Below the pieces are notes generated by a model, which was given only the letters and a program-made list of their open reading frames with translations, ran no database searches and was not told where the DNA came from. A program made the position numbers and the translations under genes. A DNA stretch of 27,104 nt. It comes from a virus. The DNA lies in the IMG/VR virus record IMGVR_UViG_3300021964_000423, positions 1 to 27,104 of that record; one strand, 5' to 3'. Positions within the stretch are counted from its first letter, which is position 1, and the number at the start of each line of letters is the position of its first letter. Shown here one piece after another: positions 2,236 through 18,088 of this stretch.

Positions 2236-2251
2236 ACTGCATATTTGCAGC
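2236..2251 (-). promoter_or_regulatory. Dyad operator candidate before exonuclease gene
   Basis: The plus-strand sequence ACTGCATATTTGCAGC is a CTGCA-N4-TGCAG dyad. The same arms recur at 3576-3591 and 4840-4855. On the minus strand it lies just downstream of TTGACC and upstream of TATAAT (2224-2229), so it would sit within a promoter for the exonuclease/ERF/SSB-like genes. TTGACC to TATAAT is 25 nt, too long for a standard sigma-70 spacer, so the exact promoter elements are uncertain. Confidence 0.6.
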
Positions 2252-2255
2252 TGGG

Positions 2256-2525
2256 TCAATCGGAATTATATTTTGAGAAGTCTGAGGGTTTGCAATAGCC
2301 GAACTCAATCAATTCTTTTTTAAGTCTGCCTTTGAGCCAATTCTCACCAACCTTTTCACCGTTGATAATTCTTTGGGCGTTGACTTTATGGCTATCCATT
2401 ACCCATCCTTGAACCTTTTGATACTCTTTATTGTATGCATCATTAGATCCGCGCATAACACTAGCTTCCCATACATCATTCTCAATGTATCGGGAGATTG
2501 CTTTTGCTTCATTTTTCTTATGCAT
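2256..2525 (-). CDS. Small hypothetical protein
   Basis: An 89-aa charged, mostly helical-looking protein beginning MHKKNEAKAISRYIENDVWE, with KVNAQRIINGEKVGENWLKG mid-chain and a C-terminal LKKELIEFGYCKP. I do not recognise a family. The ATG at 2525 overlaps the end of the upstream HTH gene by 8 nt, and only a weak GGTG precedes it, so translation is probably coupled. Its stop is followed by the promoter-like gap before the exonuclease gene. Confidence 0.65.
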   Translation of the reverse strand: MHKKNEAKAISRYIENDVWEASVMRGSNDAYNKEYQKVQGWVMDSHKVNAQRIINGEKVGENWLKGRLKKELIEFGYCKPSDFSKYNSD

Positions 2526-2724
2526 TTGTCACCATGAAGTATTGAGCTACATACTTCCCGCTCTCAAGTTGAATCATTGTTTTGTCTACAGGATAACCAA
2601 GATCTTTTAGATCTTTGATTCTTGCTGAGAGACGAAAGCAATTGTAATTTAGCAATGCATCTATTGCTGTTATTGTTTTGCCCGATTCAAGGTGAGCTTT
2701 TATTTTTTTTGTTTGACTTTCCAT
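2518..2724 (-). CDS. Small helix-turn-helix protein (HTH_39-like)
   Basis: A 68-aa protein. The ATG at 2724 (MESQTKK) is preferred over an upstream alternative because GGAG lies 7 nt before it. The sequence KIKAHLESGKTITAIDALLN, then NCFRLSARIKDLKDLGYPVD, matches from memory the short phage helix-turn-helix family with the pattern LxxGxxITxxxAxxxxxxxRLxxRIxxLRxxG. DNA binding is expected. It overlaps the 3' end of the nuclease gene by 38 nt and is followed by a coupled small gene. Confidence 0.8.
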   Translation of the reverse strand: MESQTKKIKAHLESGKTITAIDALLNYNCFRLSARIKDLKDLGYPVDKTMIQLESGKYVAQYFMVTNA

Positions 2725-3046
2725 CTTTGTTCTCCATAAGATTTTGGAATGTGTCACCAGACATGATGACTAGAGTTTGTGGCTTGCCTCGCCGCCGTTT
2801 ATAGAAAGCAATGTCTCTGCTTTCTAAGACTGAGAATGGACTAGGGAAGTTTGATTTGTCTCTGTACTTTACTTCTCCTACCAATCTATCTCCGTTGATT
2901 GTGAGGTGGATGTCACCTGTATACTCTCCTCCCAAGCTTCCCGAGAGAGGGACGCGCTTCGCTTCGATCTTCGCTTTGATTTTGTTAAGCCAATCGACAA
3001 ACCACTTTTCGTGATAGGTTCCTTTGATTTTACTACGGCTTGCCAT
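2687..3046 (-). CDS. PD-(D/E)XK nuclease, Holliday-junction resolvase-like
   Basis: A 119-aa protein; ATG at 3046 (MASRSKIKG) has GGAGG 4 nt upstream. Order of motifs: GTYHEKWFVDWLNKI with the N-terminal Glu (residue about 13), RVPLSGSLGG (about 31-40), GDIHL with the metal-binding Asp (about 44), and LVGEVKYRD with the ExK pair (about 56-64). This is the archaeal Hjc-like or VRR-NUC-like layout, suggesting cleavage of branched DNA. It lies in the recombination/replication gene block, consistent with resolving recombination intermediates or debranching DNA before packaging. The last 38 nt overlap the HTH gene downstream. Confidence 0.75.
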   Translation of the reverse strand: MASRSKIKGTYHEKWFVDWLNKIKAKIEAKRVPLSGSLGGEYTGDIHLTINGDRLVGEVKYRDKSNFPSPFSVLESRDIAFYKRRRGKPQTLVIMSGDTFQNLMENKDGKSNKKNKSSP

Positions 3047-3195
3047 TTGTCCTCCCGATAGCAATTAAGACAAACATACCAATGCTTCTCCATGCTGCGA
3101 CCCGCATTGTTTTTAAGTATTGCAACAAACCAAATTGATTTCGTTTCACACGAAACACAGAATGCTGCCTTACCTTTTTTTGACTTCGATGTCAT
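2878..3195 (-). CDS. Zinc-ribbon protein with long out-of-frame overlap
   Basis: The 105-aa frame has a clear zinc ribbon in its first half: CVSC (residues 13-16) and, after HWYV, CLNC (about 42-45). The last ~56 residues are low-complexity Ser/Lys/Thr and overlap the nuclease gene by 169 nt in another frame, so they look like translation of that gene's DNA out of frame. The true product may be mainly the first 50 residues plus a chance extension. No good ribosome binding site precedes the ATG at 3195, but it overlaps the upstream XRE gene by 26 nt, which suggests coupling. Confidence 0.5.
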   Translation of the reverse strand: MTSKSKKGKAAFCVSCETKSIWFVAILKNNAGRSMEKHWYVCLNCYREDKWQAVVKSKEPITKSGLSIGLTKSKRRSKRSASLSREAWEESIQVTSTSQSTEIDW

Positions 3196-3409
3196 AGCCT
3201 AAAGCATCCAACCAACACATAAGAAGAAAGCCAGACGGTACTCTCTTGTGCTGTTCCCATTTGTGGATCAGCGAATCTGTACAACCAATTAACTCAGCTA
3301 GTTTTGGTTGGCTTAATTTTTTCTCGTGTCTTGCTGCGATTAGCATGGAAATCATTTGCTCGTAGTTCTTTGGCAGCAAGATTCTTGAGTTTCTTTTTGT
3401 ACTCTTCAT
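3170..3409 (-). CDS. XRE/Cro-family helix-turn-helix regulator
   Basis: A 79-aa protein with a classic XRE domain from about residue 19: MLIAARHEKKLSQPKLAELI, then GCTDSLIHKWEQHKRVPS and LLMCWLDALGYDIEV. The R-x(4)-LSQ-x2-LA-x2-IG-x5-I-x2-WE-x3-R-x-PS spacing is diagnostic. It likely represses or activates phage promoters. The start is uncertain: the ATG at 3409 has no Shine-Dalgarno and overlaps the preceding gene by 116 nt; ATG codons at 3355 or 3346 would still keep most of the domain. It could recognise the CTGCA dyads nearby. Confidence 0.75.
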   Translation of the reverse strand: MKSTKRNSRILLPKNYEQMISMLIAARHEKKLSQPKLAELIGCTDSLIHKWEQHKRVPSGFLLMCWLDALGYDIEVKKR

Positions 3410-3575
3410 CTAAGGCTTCGCTGATTTTAAAAGCAGTGTCATATCGCAGGTCGGTTGTTCCATTAACAGAACGATAGTATGTTGATGTTGGAATGCCAGC
3501 ACAACGAAAACCATCGAGAAGTTCGATGCCTAGTTCTTGCGAAATGTTTTGTAGTTGTTCCATGTAGCTTTTCAT
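3294..3575 (-). CDS. Second helix-turn-helix regulator
   Basis: A 93-aa protein starting at ATG 3575 (MKSYMEQL). Residues about 8-50 (ISQELGIELLDGFRCAGI, PTSTYYRSVNGTTDLRYDTA) look like a repressor-type HTH with the recognition helix at PTSTYYR. The C-terminal tail is Lys/Arg-rich and overlaps the next XRE gene out of frame by 116 nt. No Shine-Dalgarno is seen; the ATG is directly abutted by a copy of the CTGCA-N4-TGCAG dyad and follows a strong hairpin, so initiation and transcription here look controlled. Autoregulation is a reasonable inference. Confidence 0.7.
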   Translation of the reverse strand: MKSYMEQLQNISQELGIELLDGFRCAGIPTSTYYRSVNGTTDLRYDTAFKISEALDEEYKKKLKNLAAKELRANDFHANRSKTREKIKPTKTS

Positions 3576-3591
3576 ATTGCATGTATGCAGC
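3576..3591 (-). promoter_or_regulatory. Dyad operator candidate at HTH gene start
   Basis: ATTGCATGTATGCAGC shares both arms with the dyads at 2236-2251 and 4840-4855 except for one base (ATTGCA instead of ACTGCA). It ends exactly where the HTH gene's ATG begins, a position where a bound repressor would block its own gene. Confidence 0.55.
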
Positions 3592-3603
3592 AAGGTTATT
3601 CAT

Positions 3604-3638
3604 TTGACAAGGGGCTGCTATGAACAACCCCTTATCAA
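3604..3638 (-). other. 14-bp RNA hairpin upstream of HTH gene
   Basis: On the minus strand the arms 3625-3638 and 3604-3617 pair over 14 positions (12 Watson-Crick, 2 G-U) around a 7-nt loop, TTCATAG. On the plus strand the same two positions would be A-C mismatches, so the fold favours minus-strand RNA. It begins 5 nt after the stop of the zinc-finger gene. No T-tract follows, so it is more likely a processing or attenuation element than a simple terminator. Confidence 0.55.
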
Positions 3639-3643
3639 CTTTA

Positions 3644-3820
3644 TCAATTAGCTTCGCCAGTTCCCTGACACTCATAGCAAGTGTCATGTATTGTATCTAT
3701 ATAACCGACATCGCGTGTAAAACTTTGAGGTCTTGCTACCTCATACTCTACAGTCCCATCACCTAAGCAAACAGGACAGGTCTCCCGTTCAGTACGGTAT
3801 TCCGTCATCTTCGATAGCAT
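3644..3820 (-). CDS. DnaJ-type zinc-finger miniprotein
   Basis: A 58-aa protein; ATG at 3820 (MLSKMTEY) is chosen for the GGGAG 7 nt upstream. It contains two CxxCxGxG modules, CPVCLGDG (about residues 14-21) and CYECQGTG (about 48-55), the zinc-binding motif of the DnaJ cysteine-rich domain, but no J domain. In phages such isolated fingers occur in small early proteins of unknown function; protein or nucleic-acid binding is inferred. It overlaps the end of the upstream gene by 32 nt. Confidence 0.75.
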   Translation of the reverse strand: MLSKMTEYRTERETCPVCLGDGTVEYEVARPQSFTRDVGYIDTIHDTCYECQGTGEAN

Positions 3821-3983
3821 GCTTTTTCTCCCATGCTGCAACTGCACGTTGGATGAATTTGTCTCGATTGAAACGTGGATTGCGTTGCTGTAGATCGTCT
3901 GCAATCATTTCAATTGTGAGGGGTGAGAAAACTAGGGGGGCAATTGAATCTGCCACCCATTCAAAGTCTCTTCTTGTCATCAT
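3789..3983 (-). CDS. Small hypothetical early protein
   Basis: A 64-aa protein. ATG 3983 is chosen because GGGAGG sits 7 nt upstream and the start overlaps the DUF932 stop codon (ATGATGA). The body MMTRRDFEWVADSIAPLV and a central QRNPRFNRDKFIQRAVAAWE resemble short phage proteins of unknown role that begin with a MTRxDFxxIA segment. It ends DDGIPY. No catalytic motif seen. Confidence 0.7.
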   Translation of the reverse strand: MMTRRDFEWVADSIAPLVFSPLTIEMIADDLQQRNPRFNRDKFIQRAVAAWEKKHAIEDDGIPY

Positions 3984-4810
3984 CTTAATGCCTCCCATTG
4001 TTTAGAGCGCATAGCAAAGATGATCTTCTGCTCTCGCTCGATACGCGCTGCATGTGGGGAGCGCATGTCATCTGTGTGTGTGGCCCAATATGTTAAGCAA
4101 TTGTATAGCGCCCACATGTTTGCACCAAGCACAGCAGATTCATTCATCCAATAATCAAGCAGCTTATCGAGTTGCTTTTCATTGGTCTTGTTGACGTTGG
4201 GTTGTCTTGTTGATGCTTTGCAAACTGTTGCTTTGAGGAAGTCATTGACGTCTATGATTGAAATCTTTGACGCCATATAATCTTGCCACAGTTCTTTGTT
4301 GTGGAAGAATGTAGACACACCAATCTCTACCTTCTTAGCGGACGCTTCAACATTGAGAGATGCAGTGTGCTTGAAGCTGGTAAATGCAGCAACATCTCCT
4401 GTGACTTGACCGTTCTTGCAGACAAGGCGCAGTGCTGATGAGCGCATCATGTATGCCCACGATGCATCATAGCTGTTGAGGAAATCGACTTTAAACTTTG
4501 TTACGTCACCGACATTTGGTTCTACGCAGAGATCATTGTAGATAATTTCTCCACGCATCTTTGCGCCGTTCTCATAGACTTGATAATATATATCAAAGTC
4601 ATTTGATACATCGGCTCGCTTTGCAGCATCGTATGCAGCATTGATTACATCATCATGCGTGACTAGCTTGTATCTGGTGCCGTGTACGCCAAGTATTTCG
4701 TCTGTGTCTGTGCGTACTACCATCATGTGCTTTGGCGCTTCCTTGCCGCTCTGAGAGAAGCAAGGCTGCAATTCTACGGGAAACTCCGCGCTTGTAATAT
4801 CAAATGGCAT
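3980..4810 (-). CDS. DUF932 / phage-plasmid-like protein
   Basis: A 276-aa protein; ATG at 4810 (MPFDITSAEF) is chosen because AAGGAG lies 6 nt upstream. Marks of the DUF932 family: MMVVRTDTDEILGVHGTRYK (about residues 29-48) with the LGVxGxRYxxV motif, NGAKMRGEI, a central VDFLNSYDASWAYMMRSS, and ALRLVCKNGQV (about 127-137). Members are common on plasmids and phages; their function is not established, though they are often near recombination or replication genes. It has its own promoter candidate (TTGACA, 17-nt spacer) overlapped by two dyads. It probably heads the operon running to the recombination genes. Confidence 0.85.
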   Translation of the reverse strand: MPFDITSAEFPVELQPCFSQSGKEAPKHMMVVRTDTDEILGVHGTRYKLVTHDDVINAAYDAAKRADVSNDFDIYYQVYENGAKMRGEIIYNDLCVEPNVGDVTKFKVDFLNSYDASWAYMMRSSALRLVCKNGQVTGDVAAFTSFKHTASLNVEASAKKVEIGVSTFFHNKELWQDYMASKISIIDVNDFLKATVCKASTRQPNVNKTNEKQLDKLLDYWMNESAVLGANMWALYNCLTYWATHTDDMRSPHAARIEREQKIIFAMRSKQWEALR

Positions 4811-4839
4811 TGTGTTCTCCTTTATATCTGCCAGTTGGT

Positions 4840-4855
4840 ACTGCATTGTTGCAGC
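4840..4855 (-). promoter_or_regulatory. Dyad operator candidate before DUF932 gene
   Basis: ACTGCATTGTTGCAGC is the third copy of the AYTGCA-N4-TGCAGC dyad. It overlaps the candidate -10 box of the DUF932 promoter and lies 29 nt from the ATG, nearly the same distance as the exonuclease copy (32 nt). Confidence 0.6.
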
Positions 4856-4873
4856 TTTTATATCTAGTGTCAA
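4845..4873 (-). promoter_or_regulatory. Sigma-70-like promoter for DUF932 gene
   Basis: Minus strand: TTGACA (4868-4873), a 17-nt spacer, then AACAAT (4845-4850, 4 of 6 to TATAAT). The -35 box is a perfect consensus and lies inside a second dyad, CTAGT-N7-ACTAG (4864-4880). Predicted RNA start is about 25-30 nt before the ATG. Confidence 0.6.
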
Positions 4874-6345: not shown

Positions 6346-6360
6346 GTGACGCAACGTCAC
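6346..6360. promoter_or_regulatory. GTGACG-CAA-CGTCAC dyad
   Basis: Perfect 6-bp arms around CAA. The same sequence with one central change (TAA) occurs at 12827-12841 near the start of the scaffold gene, flanked by matching bases (A before, A after). Confidence 0.45.
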
Positions 6361-11003: not shown

Positions 11004-12542
11004 ATGATAACTGATCCAATTGCTAAGGCGTATTTGAAAAGATACGAGACTGCAAAAGCAAAGCGGACAAACTTTGTTGATGTATTTGAAGAGTGCTATG
11101 AGTACGCGCTTCCTCAACGTGAGTCCTTTTACTATGAGGTTTCTGGAGAAAGGCGCGACGATAAAATCTTTGATGAAACTGCTGTTGTAGGTGTTCAAGA
11201 GTTTGCATCTCGCTTGCAGTCTGGATTAGTTCCTAACTTTGCACGGTGGGCTGATCTTACTTCTGGCTCTGAAGTTCCACCTGAACAGAGAGATATGGTC
11301 AATAATGACCTTGATGAAGTTACTGAGTATGTTTTTGAAGTTATTCAAAACTCTAACTTTTCACAAGAAGTGCATGAATCATTTATGGATTTGGCAGTGG
11401 GTACTGGCGTTCTTTGCATTGAAGAAGGCGATGCTATAAATCCTATTCGGTTTAGCGCAATACCTTTACCGCATGTAATTCTAGACACTGGCCCAGATGA
11501 TAATATTGATCACGTTTTTCGTGAGCGCAAAAATATAAGATTTGATCAGCTTGATATTCTTTACCCACGTGGTGAGTTTGATCAGCAAGTCTTGAACATG
11601 ATAACAAATGGTAAAGACTCGACAACTACAGTTCTTGAAGTTGTTTGCAAAGATTACAGTAAACGAAATGAAAGCGCCTATCTGCATTATGCAATCTGCA
11701 TGACAACGAATACAGTTCTTATGAAGCGCGAGATGAAGGGCTTAGGGTCGAACCCATTTGTTTGTTTTAGATGGTCAAAGTGTGCGGGTGAAGTTTATGG
11801 ACGTGGCCCACTGTTCAATGCGTTAAGCGCAATTAAAACAACCAATCTTACTGTAGAGTTAATTCTCGAAAATGCTCAGATGTCTATCTCTGGCATTTAC
11901 CAAATGGAGGATGATGGTGTTGTTAATGTTGATACAATTAACTTAGTCCCTGGAACGATTATACCTAAAGCTATGGGCAGTGCTGGGCTTCAGCCAATAA
12001 ATGCGGCTGGAAGTTTTGATGTTGCTCAACTTGTTCTAAACGACATGCGCAATAATATTAAACGCGCTTTGTATAATGACATGCTTGGAGATCCCAACCG
12101 AACACCAGCTTCAGCAACAGAGGTTGCAGAAAGAATGGCTGATTTGTCTAGACGAATTGGCGCAGCATTCGGTCGGTTACAAGTAGAGCTTGTACAGCCT
12201 GTGCTTCAACGTGTTATATACATTCTTAAAAAACAAGGCCGAATAGATTTGCCTACTGTTAATGGTAGGGAAGTAAAAATTAAATCTGTTTCTCCTCTTG
12301 CTCAAGCCCAAGCAAATCAAGACATTACTGCGGTATCTAGGTTTCTTGAGCTTGCACAAAATGCATTTGGCCCAGAACTTATGAACCTATTAATTAATAG
12401 CGAAGAAACTGCTGTTTATCTTGCGAAGAAGTTTGGTGTTCCAGATAGTTTGATTCGAGATCCAGCTGAACGTGAACAAATAGTTGCAATGATGCAGCAA
12501 ATGCAGCAAAGTCAGGTTCAAGCGCCACAACCAATGGAGTAA
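11004..12542 (+). CDS. Portal (head-to-tail connecting protein)
   Basis: A 512-aa protein that forms the dodecameric connector at the packaging vertex. Features of the podovirus head-tail connector family: N-terminal AYLKRYETAKAKRTNFVDVF and CYEYALPQRESFY (residues about 9-42), EFASRLQSGLVPNFARWADL (about 65-84), FSQEVHESFMDLAVGTGVL (about 114-132), and a C-terminal TPASATEVAERMADLSRRIG followed by a helix-rich tail ending Gln/Met-rich. Length is in the T7 gp8 range. It starts immediately after the previous stop without a gap. Confidence 0.95.
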   Translation: MITDPIAKAYLKRYETAKAKRTNFVDVFEECYEYALPQRESFYYEVSGERRDDKIFDETAVVGVQEFASRLQSGLVPNFARWADLTSGSEVPPEQRDMVNNDLDEVTEYVFEVIQNSNFSQEVHESFMDLAVGTGVLCIEEGDAINPIRFSAIPLPHVILDTGPDDNIDHVFRERKNIRFDQLDILYPRGEFDQQVLNMITNGKDSTTTVLEVVCKDYSKRNESAYLHYAICMTTNTVLMKREMKGLGSNPFVCFRWSKCAGEVYGRGPLFNALSAIKTTNLTVELILENAQMSISGIYQMEDDGVVNVDTINLVPGTIIPKAMGSAGLQPINAAGSFDVAQLVLNDMRNNIKRALYNDMLGDPNRTPASATEVAERMADLSRRIGAAFGRLQVELVQPVLQRVIYILKKQGRIDLPTVNGREVKIKSVSPLAQAQANQDITAVSRFLELAQNAFGPELMNLLINSEETAVYLAKKFGVPDSLIRDPAEREQIVAMMQQMQQSQVQAPQPME

Positions 12543-12545
12543 TGC

Positions 12546-12830
12546 TTGAATCAGAAAATTAATGTAGGCATTGATGGGATACAGCGCCCACTAAAAGATG
12601 ATCGTGAGATAAGCCAAAACATTGCTTATTTGTTTGCAACTGACACAGGTAAGTCTGTTTTGAAATACTTGCGATCTATTACTATTGAAATGGTACACGG
12701 TCCAAATGTAACTACAGAAGAACTGCGTCACATGGAGGGTCAGCGATATATTGTTGGCCTTATTGAGAACCGTGTTGCTCATGCACATAAGGTAAAGAAT
12801 GATGGAAGAACAACAAATTCAAGAAAGTGA
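12546..12830 (+). CDS. Small Bbp19-like structural-module protein
   Basis: A 94-aa protein with a TTG start at 12546 supported by GGAG 6 nt upstream; a nearby ATG in another frame stops after six codons. YLFATDTGKSVLKYLRSITI, then a linker and GQRYIVGLIENRVAHA, fits the pattern of the Bbp19-type small phage proteins encoded beside portal and scaffold genes (from memory, moderate certainty). Role unknown. It overlaps the scaffold gene by 32 nt. Confidence 0.75.
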   Translation: MNQKINVGIDGIQRPLKDDREISQNIAYLFATDTGKSVLKYLRSITIEMVHGPNVTTEELRHMEGQRYIVGLIENRVAHAHKVKNDGRTTNSRK

Positions 12831-13533
12831 CGTAACGTCACAAGACTCACCAGCTACACTTGATAGCATTAATGAAACTTCTGAGAGACCTGAGTGGTTG
12901 CCAGAAAAATTTAATACACCAGAAGATCTTGCAAACTCTTACAATTCACTTGCGGCAAAGTTAGGTGAAAAAGAAGATTCACTTCGTGAGAAACTTCTTT
13001 CTGAGTTGCAAGAAGAGGCAAGCGAAGGGGTTCCAGAAACGGCTGGTGGCTATGAGCTTCCTGATTTTGTTGATGTCGAAGAGGCTGTTGATAATGAACT
13101 GTTAAAGAGTTGGGCTGAACATTGTCATGAGAATGGCTACACGCATCAAGAGTTTCAAAAAGGTCTTGAGCTTTATGCTGAGGCTATGGGACCAATGCCT
13201 GATCTTGATGCTGAGGCGGCACGTCTTGGGGAAAACAGTGAGGCTCGAATAGAAGCTGCTAGTCTTTTTGCTAATCAGTTTTTTAACGAGGAAACACTTC
13301 CAGCAATAGAAAAGTTATGCGAAACTGCAGAGGGCATATTTGCATTGGAGCAAATTATGGACGCAATAAAAGGGCCATCAACATCTGAGCAGACAAGTGT
13401 TGCTGCAAACTTCAATGAAATAGAGCTTCGAGAAATGCAAAAAGACCCACGATATTGGGATGCAGCAAGACGAGATCCAGCTTTTGTTAAGAGAGTTGAC
13501 GATGGATACCAACGATTACACAACAGAACTTAG
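12799..13533 (+). CDS. Scaffold (capsid assembly) protein
   Basis: A 244-aa very acidic protein. ATG at 12799 has AAGG 6 nt upstream. It has ERPEWLPEKFNTPEDLANSY (about 29-48), the common opening of podovirus scaffold proteins, ELPDFVDVEEAVDN, a helical middle, and a basic C-terminal end (DPRYWDAARRDPAFVKRVDD) expected to touch the capsid protein. It guides procapsid assembly and leaves before DNA fills the head. A GTGACG-TAA-CGTCAC dyad lies in its start region. Confidence 0.9.
   Translation: MMEEQQIQESDVTSQDSPATLDSINETSERPEWLPEKFNTPEDLANSYNSLAAKLGEKEDSLREKLLSELQEEASEGVPETAGGYELPDFVDVEEAVDNELLKSWAEHCHENGYTHQEFQKGLELYAEAMGPMPDLDAEAARLGENSEARIEAASLFANQFFNEETLPAIEKLCETAEGIFALEQIMDAIKGPSTSEQTSVAANFNEIELREMQKDPRYWDAARRDPAFVKRVDDGYQRLHNRT
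12827..12841. repeat. Second GTGACG-N3-CGTCAC dyad
   Basis: GTGACGTAACGTCAC differs only in its central base triplet (TAA for CAA) from the dyad at 6346-6360. It is inside the scaffold coding sequence, encoding SDVTS. Confidence 0.4.
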
Positions 13534-15845: not shown

Positions 15846-18088
15846 TGAGAAAGATAAGAGTACCTTTGTCAAACTTTACATTTGGTGAGGTTAGTTCTTC
15901 TCTTTTATCAAGGACTGATACACCTATATATACACAATCTGCACAACGAGTTGAAAACTTTTTCTTACGCGCTGAAGGTGGCGTAATCAAACGGTCTGGC
16001 CTTCAATACTTGTATGAGTATGACACAACAATTGACACATCTAAAACGCAGCAATGTCGGCTTTTGCCATTTATTTTTTCTGATGATGAGCAGTACATTA
16101 TTTCACTTGAAAATGCGAAAGTCAGAGTTTTCCAAATATCTCCAACGACAGGTGCAGTTAGTTTAATACAAACGATAACAGCTGATGTTGATGCTGCAGC
16201 TTTGAAGTTTGATGATGATTATTTGCATGAGTATACATATGCACAGGCGGGTGATGTTATGTTTATCTGCCATCAGCTTTTTGTGCCTCAACAGATTGTT
16301 CGAACATCACTGACAAACTTTCAAGTTGAAAGCTTTCAGTTTGATCAGAGGTCAGACAATAAAGCTATATTCCAACCATACTTTCCTTTTCAAACAGGTG
16401 GAACAACCCTTGATCCATCAGCAACATCTGGAAGTGGTGTTACACTTACAACAAGTGCTGCTTACTGGAATACAGATTCTCCATCTAAACACATTGGAAC
16501 AACCATTAGATATAATGGGAATGAGATCGAGATTACTGGTGTAACAAGTAGCACAGTTGCTACTGGTGACATATTAGACTCCTTGAAAGTTACATTGTTA
16601 GCAAACTCATTAAAAGTTGATGAGGGGTCTACGTCAATTGAAGTAACAATGGTTAATCATGGATTTAGTGTTGGTGATGGATTTACCGTTTCAAATGCTG
16701 GGACTATTGGCGGTATTTCAATAAATCAAATTAACGGCGCAAGAACAGTTGCTTCAATTATAAGTGAAGATAAATTTACTTTTACAGCAGGGGCTTCTTC
16801 AAATTCATCTGAAGTTGGGGGTGGTACACCTGACATTACAAGTCATGCGCCTACAACAAGTTGGGATGAACAATCTTTTTCTGCGCTTCGAGGGTATCCT
16901 GCGGCTGTAACCTTCCACGAAAACAGATTAGTGTTTGCTGGAACTCTTGCTCAACCAGATACTTTATTCTTTAGCAAGTCTGCAAAATATTACAACTTTG
17001 ATGTTGGCACGGCTGCAGACAATGATTCCATACAAATAACTGCTGCTATTGGTGAGATTCAACAAATACGTCATATTGTTTCAAATCGTGATCTTCAAGT
17101 ATTTGCTGCATCTGCTGAATTGTATATACCATCTTTCCAGAACCAAGCTTTAACGCCGACGAATGCTCAAATAAGACGTCAAACTCCATTTGGTTCTACA
17201 TTCCAAAGACCTCAGATTATTGATGGAGCCACCTTGTTTGTTCAAAAGGGAGGCCAAATTGTTCGTGAGTTTGTATTTAGCGATAGTGAAGCTGCGTATG
17301 TTGCAAATGCAATATCATCTTTATCTTCGCATTTAATTAAAACTCCAATTGAAATGAACACTCTTTATGGGGCGCTATCGAGATCAGAAAGCTATGTATT
17401 TGTTTTGAATAATGATGGTACTCTTGCTGTCTTTAATTCTAATAGAGCAGAGCAAAGAGCGGGATGGGTTGAGTTTACTACAAATGGCAAGTTTCATTCT
17501 ACAGTAACAATAGATGATCGTGTATTTGCAAATGTAGAATATGACCTTGGAGATGGAACTTCTAAGATTATCCTTACTGAATTTGATTCAACATATAACC
17601 TAGATATGGCAAAGGTTTACACTGGTACGGCTGGTGTGTTTGATGTTTCTGGTGAGTTTAATAATGGGGCTGTATTGCAAGTTATAGATGGGAATAATTT
17701 TGTTGGGCAGTTTACAGTAGCTAGTGGTAACATTGATGTATCATCTGTTGATGCAACCCTTACTTCTGCTGAAATTGGCTACAAGTTTGATGTTGAGTTA
17801 AAGACAAATCCAATAGATGCAAATCTAGGTACGGGTCCAATGACAGGTGAGCCAAGATCACTAGGCAGTGTTTTCTTAGACTTAAACAATACTCTTTCTT
17901 GTACAGTAAATAACACTTCTATGATTATTAGAAATGTAACCGATGACTTATCTCTTGAGCAATCAAAGTTCACAGGCAAAAAAGAATTTAGATTGTTAGG
18001 ATATAGTCGTGATCCTCAAGTTACTATAACTCAGAATGCCCCATTAGAGCTACAAATTAATGGGATGGTAGTGGAGATGATAATCTAA
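15845..18088 (+). CDS. Tail tubular protein B (T7 gp12-like nozzle)
   Basis: A 747-aa protein that forms the tail nozzle. The opening LSNFTFGEVSSSLLSRTDTP, then RVENFFLRAEGGVIKRSGLQ (residues about 7-60), is typical of this family, as are FSDDEQYIISLEN and the central RGYPAAVTFHENRLVFAGT with QPDTLFFSKSAKYYNF (about 350-385). The middle region has a Ser/Thr/Gly-rich insert (about 185-340). Start by TAATG overlap; the stop overlaps the next gene by the same TAATG, so the tail genes are tightly coupled. Confidence 0.95.
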   Translation: MRKIRVPLSNFTFGEVSSSLLSRTDTPIYTQSAQRVENFFLRAEGGVIKRSGLQYLYEYDTTIDTSKTQQCRLLPFIFSDDEQYIISLENAKVRVFQISPTTGAVSLIQTITADVDAAALKFDDDYLHEYTYAQAGDVMFICHQLFVPQQIVRTSLTNFQVESFQFDQRSDNKAIFQPYFPFQTGGTTLDPSATSGSGVTLTTSAAYWNTDSPSKHIGTTIRYNGNEIEITGVTSSTVATGDILDSLKVTLLANSLKVDEGSTSIEVTMVNHGFSVGDGFTVSNAGTIGGISINQINGARTVASIISEDKFTFTAGASSNSSEVGGGTPDITSHAPTTSWDEQSFSALRGYPAAVTFHENRLVFAGTLAQPDTLFFSKSAKYYNFDVGTAADNDSIQITAAIGEIQQIRHIVSNRDLQVFAASAELYIPSFQNQALTPTNAQIRRQTPFGSTFQRPQIIDGATLFVQKGGQIVREFVFSDSEAAYVANAISSLSSHLIKTPIEMNTLYGALSRSESYVFVLNNDGTLAVFNSNRAEQRAGWVEFTTNGKFHSTVTIDDRVFANVEYDLGDGTSKIILTEFDSTYNLDMAKVYTGTAGVFDVSGEFNNGAVLQVIDGNNFVGQFTVASGNIDVSSVDATLTSAEIGYKFDVELKTNPIDANLGTGPMTGEPRSLGSVFLDLNNTLSCTVNNTSMIIRNVTDDLSLEQSKFTGKKEFRLLGYSRDPQVTITQNAPLELQINGMVVEMII

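Follow-up and report, generated by a model that had tools for sequence, protein, structure and literature searches.

In the virus record IMGVR_UViG_3300021964_000423, a complete record of 27,104 bases analysed over its full length (the window), three copies of one palindrome stand in front of three minus-strand units of early genes. These dyads, of the form RYTGCR-N4-YGCARY, are very probably real regulatory sites. We suggest with good confidence that they are the operators of HTH1, a small helix-turn-helix (HTH) protein, which would act as a Cro-like repressor of the unit headed by a DUF932-type gene, of the unit headed by a RecE-like exonuclease gene (exo) and of its own unit. The sequence evidence consists of the recurrence of the dyads at equivalent positions across diverged marine phages, their loss together with HTH1, and a change in the half-site base that accompanies changes in the HTH1 recognition helix.

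Three dyads in the window

The initial annotation had pointed out dyads with near-identical arms, AYTGCA-N4-TGCAGC, at the exonuclease gene, at an HTH regulator gene and at the DUF932 gene, two of them 29 and 32 nucleotides (nt) before start codons and one abutting the ATG of the regulator. Both positions and spacings are exact (Table 1). The pattern has these three matches in the window against a mean of 0.01 expected, and none of 100 dinucleotide shuffles reaches three. The symmetric notation RYTGCR-N4-YGCARY describes the arms better. With three mismatches permitted the motif shows no excess in the window (64 matches, 63.9 expected), hence strict matches alone are informative. The motif was picked after inspection, and how well other phages conserve it therefore serves as the independent test.

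The related pattern RYTGCA-N4-TGCARY has four matches in the window (0.14 expected). The fourth, at 12483-12498 inside the portal gene, seems to be a coding coincidence: it tracks the codons of a conserved VA(M/L)MQQ peptide and persists, except for one first-codon change, in L014, a relative that lacks HTH1.

Conservation of the dyads in relatives

Relatives were collected via DUF932, terminase, exonuclease and resolvase. The initial annotation had proposed to look for the dyads in syntenic relatives, and in diverged marine phages they are indeed found at the exo promoter, against the HTH1 ATG and, in some of these phages, ahead of the DUF932 unit. The dyad stands directly against the HTH1 ATG even where HTH1 is only 35-60% identical, and mostly 40-66 nt before the exo ATG, measured from its first base. 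After removal of near-copies there are 27 sites at HTH1 and 26 at exo. On the DUF932 side there are 31 sites (11 non-redundant) up to 450 nt upstream of the gene, often a few hundred bases away and preceding another small gene.

A further 141 loci were then scored for the dyad within 140 nt upstream, with the hidden Markov models and the consensus fixed beforehand. It precedes 58 of the 85 HTH1 genes and 71 of the 116 exo genes. The reversed pattern occurs upstream of none of these, nor does the dyad occur upstream of res, g2878, ssb or g3789 in these loci. Many HTH1 genes scored as negative bear a two-mismatch form (TTTGCATAGTCGCAGT) at roughly the same place. A very distant relative from a Kordiimonadaceae assembly (L199) has two adjacent dyad-like palindromes before its HTH1 gene, on the HTH1 strand at approximately 16373-16413.

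HTH1 as the probable binder of the dyads

The initial annotation took two HTH proteins encoded among these genes as candidate binders; the evidence favours HTH1 over HTH2. HTH2 has the clearer Cro/C1-type domain and its gene adjoins HTH1, so that it might bind the dyads itself or share them with HTH1 as a CI/Cro-like pair. However, the distribution of the two genes speaks against this. Where both are present, the dyad is found in the HTH1 region in 71 of 73 loci. Among the 13 loci with HTH1 and without HTH2, 11 have the HTH1 dyad and 11 the exo dyad, and the two lacking the HTH1 dyad have a related palindrome instead. In contrast, the dyad is at neither place in any of 16 loci with HTH2 and without HTH1, and a later set of HTH1-less, HTH2-bearing loci has it in none of 31 scorable exo regions. 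HTH2 is thus kept in HTH1-less phages without dyads and missing from several dyad-bearing ones, which removes it as the binder, and either form of this alternative appears highly improbable.

On the exonuclease tree the main group without HTH1 forms a single clade, with full support, inside the HTH1-bearing phages; HTH1 and all dyads were lost together there. For HTH2 the tree requires four or more changes, none accompanied by dyad loss. A larger tree gives the same direction and never the opposite, with too few independent events for significance. On these comparisons HTH1, not HTH2, likely binds the dyads.

The operators also follow the HTH1 protein. A recognition helix that starts with Pro-Thr or Pro-Ser (before S-T-Y) goes with RCTGC half-sites in 127 of 127 phages, and one that starts with Ser-His, Cys-His, Ser-Asn or Ala-Val goes with RTTGC half-sites in 15 of 15, the base being called by majority over the four half-sites of the exo and HTH1 operators. 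A single very distant phage (Asn-Asp) departs from this rule, so that RTTGC is found in 15 of the 16 phages with starts other than Pro-Thr or Pro-Ser, and the dipeptide co-varies with the second base of the half-site in 142 of 143 phages. All three independent tree pairs on supported branches agree, likewise for the exo operator alone. In the sharpest case, L188/L179 versus L132/L133, the exonuclease is nearly the same, HTH1 differs and both operators are changed; L188 and L179 both lack HTH2, and even there the operator base follows the HTH1 helix. The co-varying dipeptide, Pro29-Thr30 in the structure model, is the N-terminal end of the recognition helix, and in Cro/CI proteins this end is among the DNA-contacting residues.

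Phage early promoters are often under the control of host factors, and the dyads could be sites of a host transcription factor that the phage exploits. This has only a slight probability, as the sites are gone in HTH1-less relatives and their second base follows the HTH1 recognition helix.

Other repeats were seen in these phages. L306 and L324, which have no detectable HTH1, bear a dyad with one mismatch (GTGGCATATATGCAAT / GTGGCATGTATGCAAT) some 70 nt upstream of the HTH2 match, an exception to the pattern above. Five HTH1-less phages (L014, L119, L124, L130 and L165) have a different inverted repeat upstream of exo (e.g. GTTACCCTATCGTTTGTGGTAGGGTAAC), which may be a terminator or an operator that replaces the dyad. 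Another conserved palindrome, GTGACGTNRCGTCAC, lies at 6346-6360 and 12827-12841 of the window. Many relatives have it in the interval from the small terminase gene to g5284, and again a short way upstream of the dyad of the DUF932 unit. In the HTH1-less clade (L014, L124, L119) it lies 72-93 nt before exo, near the expected position of the dyad, and HTH2-less phages have it too.

The HTH1 protein

The AlphaFold model of HTH1 is all-helical (pLDDT, the predicted local distance difference test, 84) and places the recognition helix at about residues 30-37 (TSTYYRSV). Most of the top Foldseek matches are of Cro/C1 type, with probability up to 0.99 and a best E-value of 0.11. HTH1 proteins have about 64-94 residues (64 in L088), which is the size of Cro, and lack a C-terminal sensor domain. 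Searches of PHROG and of PDB sequences gave no clear family for HTH1. In the window the HTH1 and HTH2 genes share 116 nt (3294-3409), read in different frames; several relatives lack HTH2 and encode a shorter HTH1.

Putative operators and promoters

Where relatives have the TTGAC-like box 8 nt before the exo dyad (16 of 26), the dyad fills a 17-nt spacer that is followed by TAGTCT-like hexamers, with TATAAT further downstream in many. The exact exo -10 element is therefore ambiguous (TAGTCT-like or TATAAT), and the dyad would overlap the promoter either way. At HTH1 the predicted -10 hexamer of relatives (mostly CATNNN) lies inside the operator. A leaderless HTH1 mRNA is probable, because the -10 element ends 6 nt before the ATG; the TTGAC-like box 19-20 nt before the dyad likewise places the transcription start at or near the ATG. 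A Shine-Dalgarno-like motif precedes the HTH1 ATG in only 2 of 27 relatives. One lineage (L095, L100, L108) has the promoter shifted relative to the site, with a short leader and the operator in the spacer. The operator is thus retained while the promoter moves, which speaks against its being merely a promoter element. At the DUF932 gene of the window, AACAAT follows TTGACA after 17 nt, a spacing that is not conserved in relatives.

Since the sites overlap putative sigma70 promoter elements, the most likely role of HTH1 is that of a repressor of all three units and of itself. The small regulon with autoregulation proposed by the initial annotation gains support from the dyads at the exo and HTH1 positions across relatives and from their loss together with HTH1; the dyad at the HTH1 ATG covers the predicted -10 element of the gene's own promoter.

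Table 1. Genes, putative operators and predicted promoter elements in the window
Feature	Position	Strand	Basis or remark
HTH1, small HTH protein of 93 residues, predicted repressor	3294-3575	minus	co-loss and co-variation with the dyads; AlphaFold, Foldseek
HTH2, XRE-type HTH protein of 79 residues, overlapping the 3' end of HTH1	3170-3409	minus	HTH_3, 24.6 bits
exo, RecE-like recombination exonuclease, first gene behind O-exo	1433-2203	minus	phrog_434, E 3.8e-24
DUF932-type gene, heading the unit behind O-932	3980-4810	minus	phrog_1221, E 4.5e-24
Operator O-exo, coding strand GCTGCAAATATGCAGT	2236-2251	minus	32 nt upstream of exo ATG (2201-2203); also before exo in most relatives that have HTH1
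Operator O-hth1, coding strand GCTGCATACATGCAAT	3576-3591	minus	0 nt from HTH1 ATG (3573-3575); dyad 16-17 nt before ATG in 22/27 non-redundant relatives
Operator O-932, coding strand GCTGCAACAATGCAGT	4840-4855	minus	29 nt upstream of DUF932 ATG (4808-4810); equivalent sites in part of relatives
exo promoter, predicted -35 TTGACC	2254-2259	minus	17-nt spacer filled by dyad; TTGAC-like box exactly 8 nt before dyad in 16/26 non-redundant relatives
exo promoter, predicted -10 TAGAAA	2231-2236	minus	after 17-nt spacer
exo promoter, alternative -10 TATAAT	2223-2228	minus	further downstream
HTH1 promoter, predicted -35 TTGTCA	3605-3610	minus	TTGAC-like box 19-20 nt before dyad in 24/27 relatives
HTH1 promoter, predicted -10 CATACA	3582-3587	minus	inside operator, ends 6 nt before ATG
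DUF932 promoter, predicted -35 TTGACA	4868-4873	minus	read from sequence; 17 nt before AACAAT
DUF932 promoter, likely -10 AACAAT	4845-4850	minus	inside operator O-932

Probable DNA sites rather than RNA hairpins

With a stem of 5-6 bp and a loop of 4 nt the dyads could also work in mRNA as small hairpins, for example as translational operators, and the exo and DUF932 dyads do fold better than shuffles (z -2.35 and -2.61). However, the HTH1 dyad of the window folds no better than shuffles, and transcripts from the predicted promoters would lack the exo and HTH1 dyads. Furthermore, in 48 distinct sites the half-sites vary independently within the R and Y classes, with A-C or C-A mismatches at paired positions (8 at the inner, 4 and 2 at the outer ones), as is expected of independent half-sites in DNA; these sites were chosen by the pattern with at most one mismatch, so that the invariance of the TGC core in the list is partly built in. 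Recognition as DNA is the reading that we prefer from these patterns, and the hairpin explanation has a very small chance of being right.

Proposed mechanism

Step 1: Each dyad would sit on an early promoter of the sigma70 type: within the spacer at exo, on the -10 element at HTH1 and on the likely -10 element at DUF932. Host RNA polymerase would transcribe the three units early in infection, and HTH1 would probably be translated from a leaderless mRNA.

Step 2: HTH1 would accumulate, and we infer that it binds as a dimer which puts one recognition helix on each RYTGCR half-site.

Step 3: The bound dimer would block the polymerase, thus repressing rather than activating. In this way HTH1 may turn down the DUF932 unit, the recombination unit of exo, the Erf-like annealing protein (Erf) and the single-strand binding protein (SSB), and its own gene after early expression.

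In a variant of this mechanism HTH1 binds the dyads and activates, or is a CI-like immunity repressor that keeps a dormant state. The shifts of repressor-operator specificity between close relatives (L188/L179 versus L132/L133) do resemble immunity divergence. However, the sites cover the -10 element or the spacer, which is a repressing position, and a protein of the size of HTH1 without a C-terminal sensor domain does not suggest an immunity repressor. Neither does the gene content: tyrosine integrase (PF00589) is absent from 16 records of 25-44 kb, and serine recombinase (PF00239) and ParA (PF13614) from 11, records that may be incomplete. A prophage search of genome contigs found close terminase relatives only in contigs of metagenome-assembled genomes, and isolate genomes (Vibrio) gave distant terminases only (43-44%). 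We consider the variant unlikely. As no integrase was found, we regard a lytic phage with a Cro-like early turn-off as more probable than a lysogeny switch.

Several points weigh against the assignment of the dyads to HTH1 as a Cro-like repressor. The independent evolutionary events are few, and the sign tests are underpowered (p 0.25 to 0.5). The rule that links helix and operator was noticed only after the groups had been inspected. Of the three sites, that at DUF932 is conserved least and is kept in only part of the relatives, a divergent HTH1 clade (L080 type) lacks the standard dyad, and L094 and L027 lack the dyad at exo. No fold match of HTH1 has an E-value below 0.1, and its Pfam HTH_3 score of 18.7 bits is below the cut-off of 23; we therefore call HTH1 Cro-like and do not assign it to HTH_3.

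Genome context

The early genes occupy the minus strand in the left third of the window: the DUF932-type gene, small genes, HTH1, HTH2, a resolvase-like nuclease, the RecE-like exonuclease, an Erf-like annealing protein and a single-strand binding protein. Packaging and structural genes, on the plus strand, fill the right part. The label DUF932 is the name given to its gene by the initial annotation. Just upstream of HTH1, at 3644-3811, a small cysteine-rich protein is kept that is similar, under the Pfam cut-off, to the DnaJ zinc-finger domain.

A DNA search of a phage database with the window gave a single short match. The nearest annotated relative found is Pelagibacter phage EXVC031P Hodr (OQ414635), whose terminase shares 65% identity with the one in the window and whose exonuclease is distant (33%). 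Unlike the window, Hodr has neither HTH1 nor the dyads.

Significance and comparison with known systems

The regulator, operator and regulon proposed here are assigned in a common group of uncultured marine phages whose early genes mostly lack a known function, and the relation between helix and operator provides a testable rule of protein-DNA specificity. A broader picture, which has about an even chance of being correct, is that of a widespread integrase-less marine phage lineage in which a stand-alone leaderless Cro-like autorepressor times the early genes through three dispersed operators, and in which the specificity of repressor and operators changes jointly between close relatives, in the manner of immunity in temperate phages, without signs of lysogeny. 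If the phages are lytic, such concerted changes would raise the question of what selects new specificities without lysogeny.

Palindromic operators of small phage repressors are well known, and so are leaderless repressor mRNAs. The operator family, the regulon and the helix-operator rule appear to be undescribed, no description of them being found in the searchable literature, the coverage of which is incomplete.

The system resembles 434 Cro, P22 c2 and the lambdoid Cro-CI proteins in its small Cro-like HTH protein and in palindromic sites of about 16 bp with a variable centre that overlap predicted promoters, and 434 Cro (2cro) and P22 c2 are among the Foldseek neighbours of HTH1. It differs from the lambdoid systems in that single operators are dispersed over three co-oriented units, HTH1 and HTH2 overlap and run in the same direction with no divergent cI/cro switch, no integrase was found, and no sequence match exceeds curated cut-offs.

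Cro of PY54, a temperate plasmid-prophage (telomere phage), is a lytic repressor acting on one 16-bp palindrome (OR3); its cI and cro mRNAs are leaderless and start at the AUG, and this Cro was suggested not to repress its own synthesis (PMC4488713). In the window, by contrast, the repressor gene's own promoter has a site. The PaaR2/YdaS region of CP-933P, a cryptic prophage, has a leaderless repressor gene with palindromes overlapping its promoter, operators clustered in one divergent intergenic region, and a toxin-antitoxin module (PMC8630535). The window is similar to CP-933P in its presumably leaderless repressor gene with a palindrome overlapping the promoter; however, unlike in CP-933P, its operators are dispersed.

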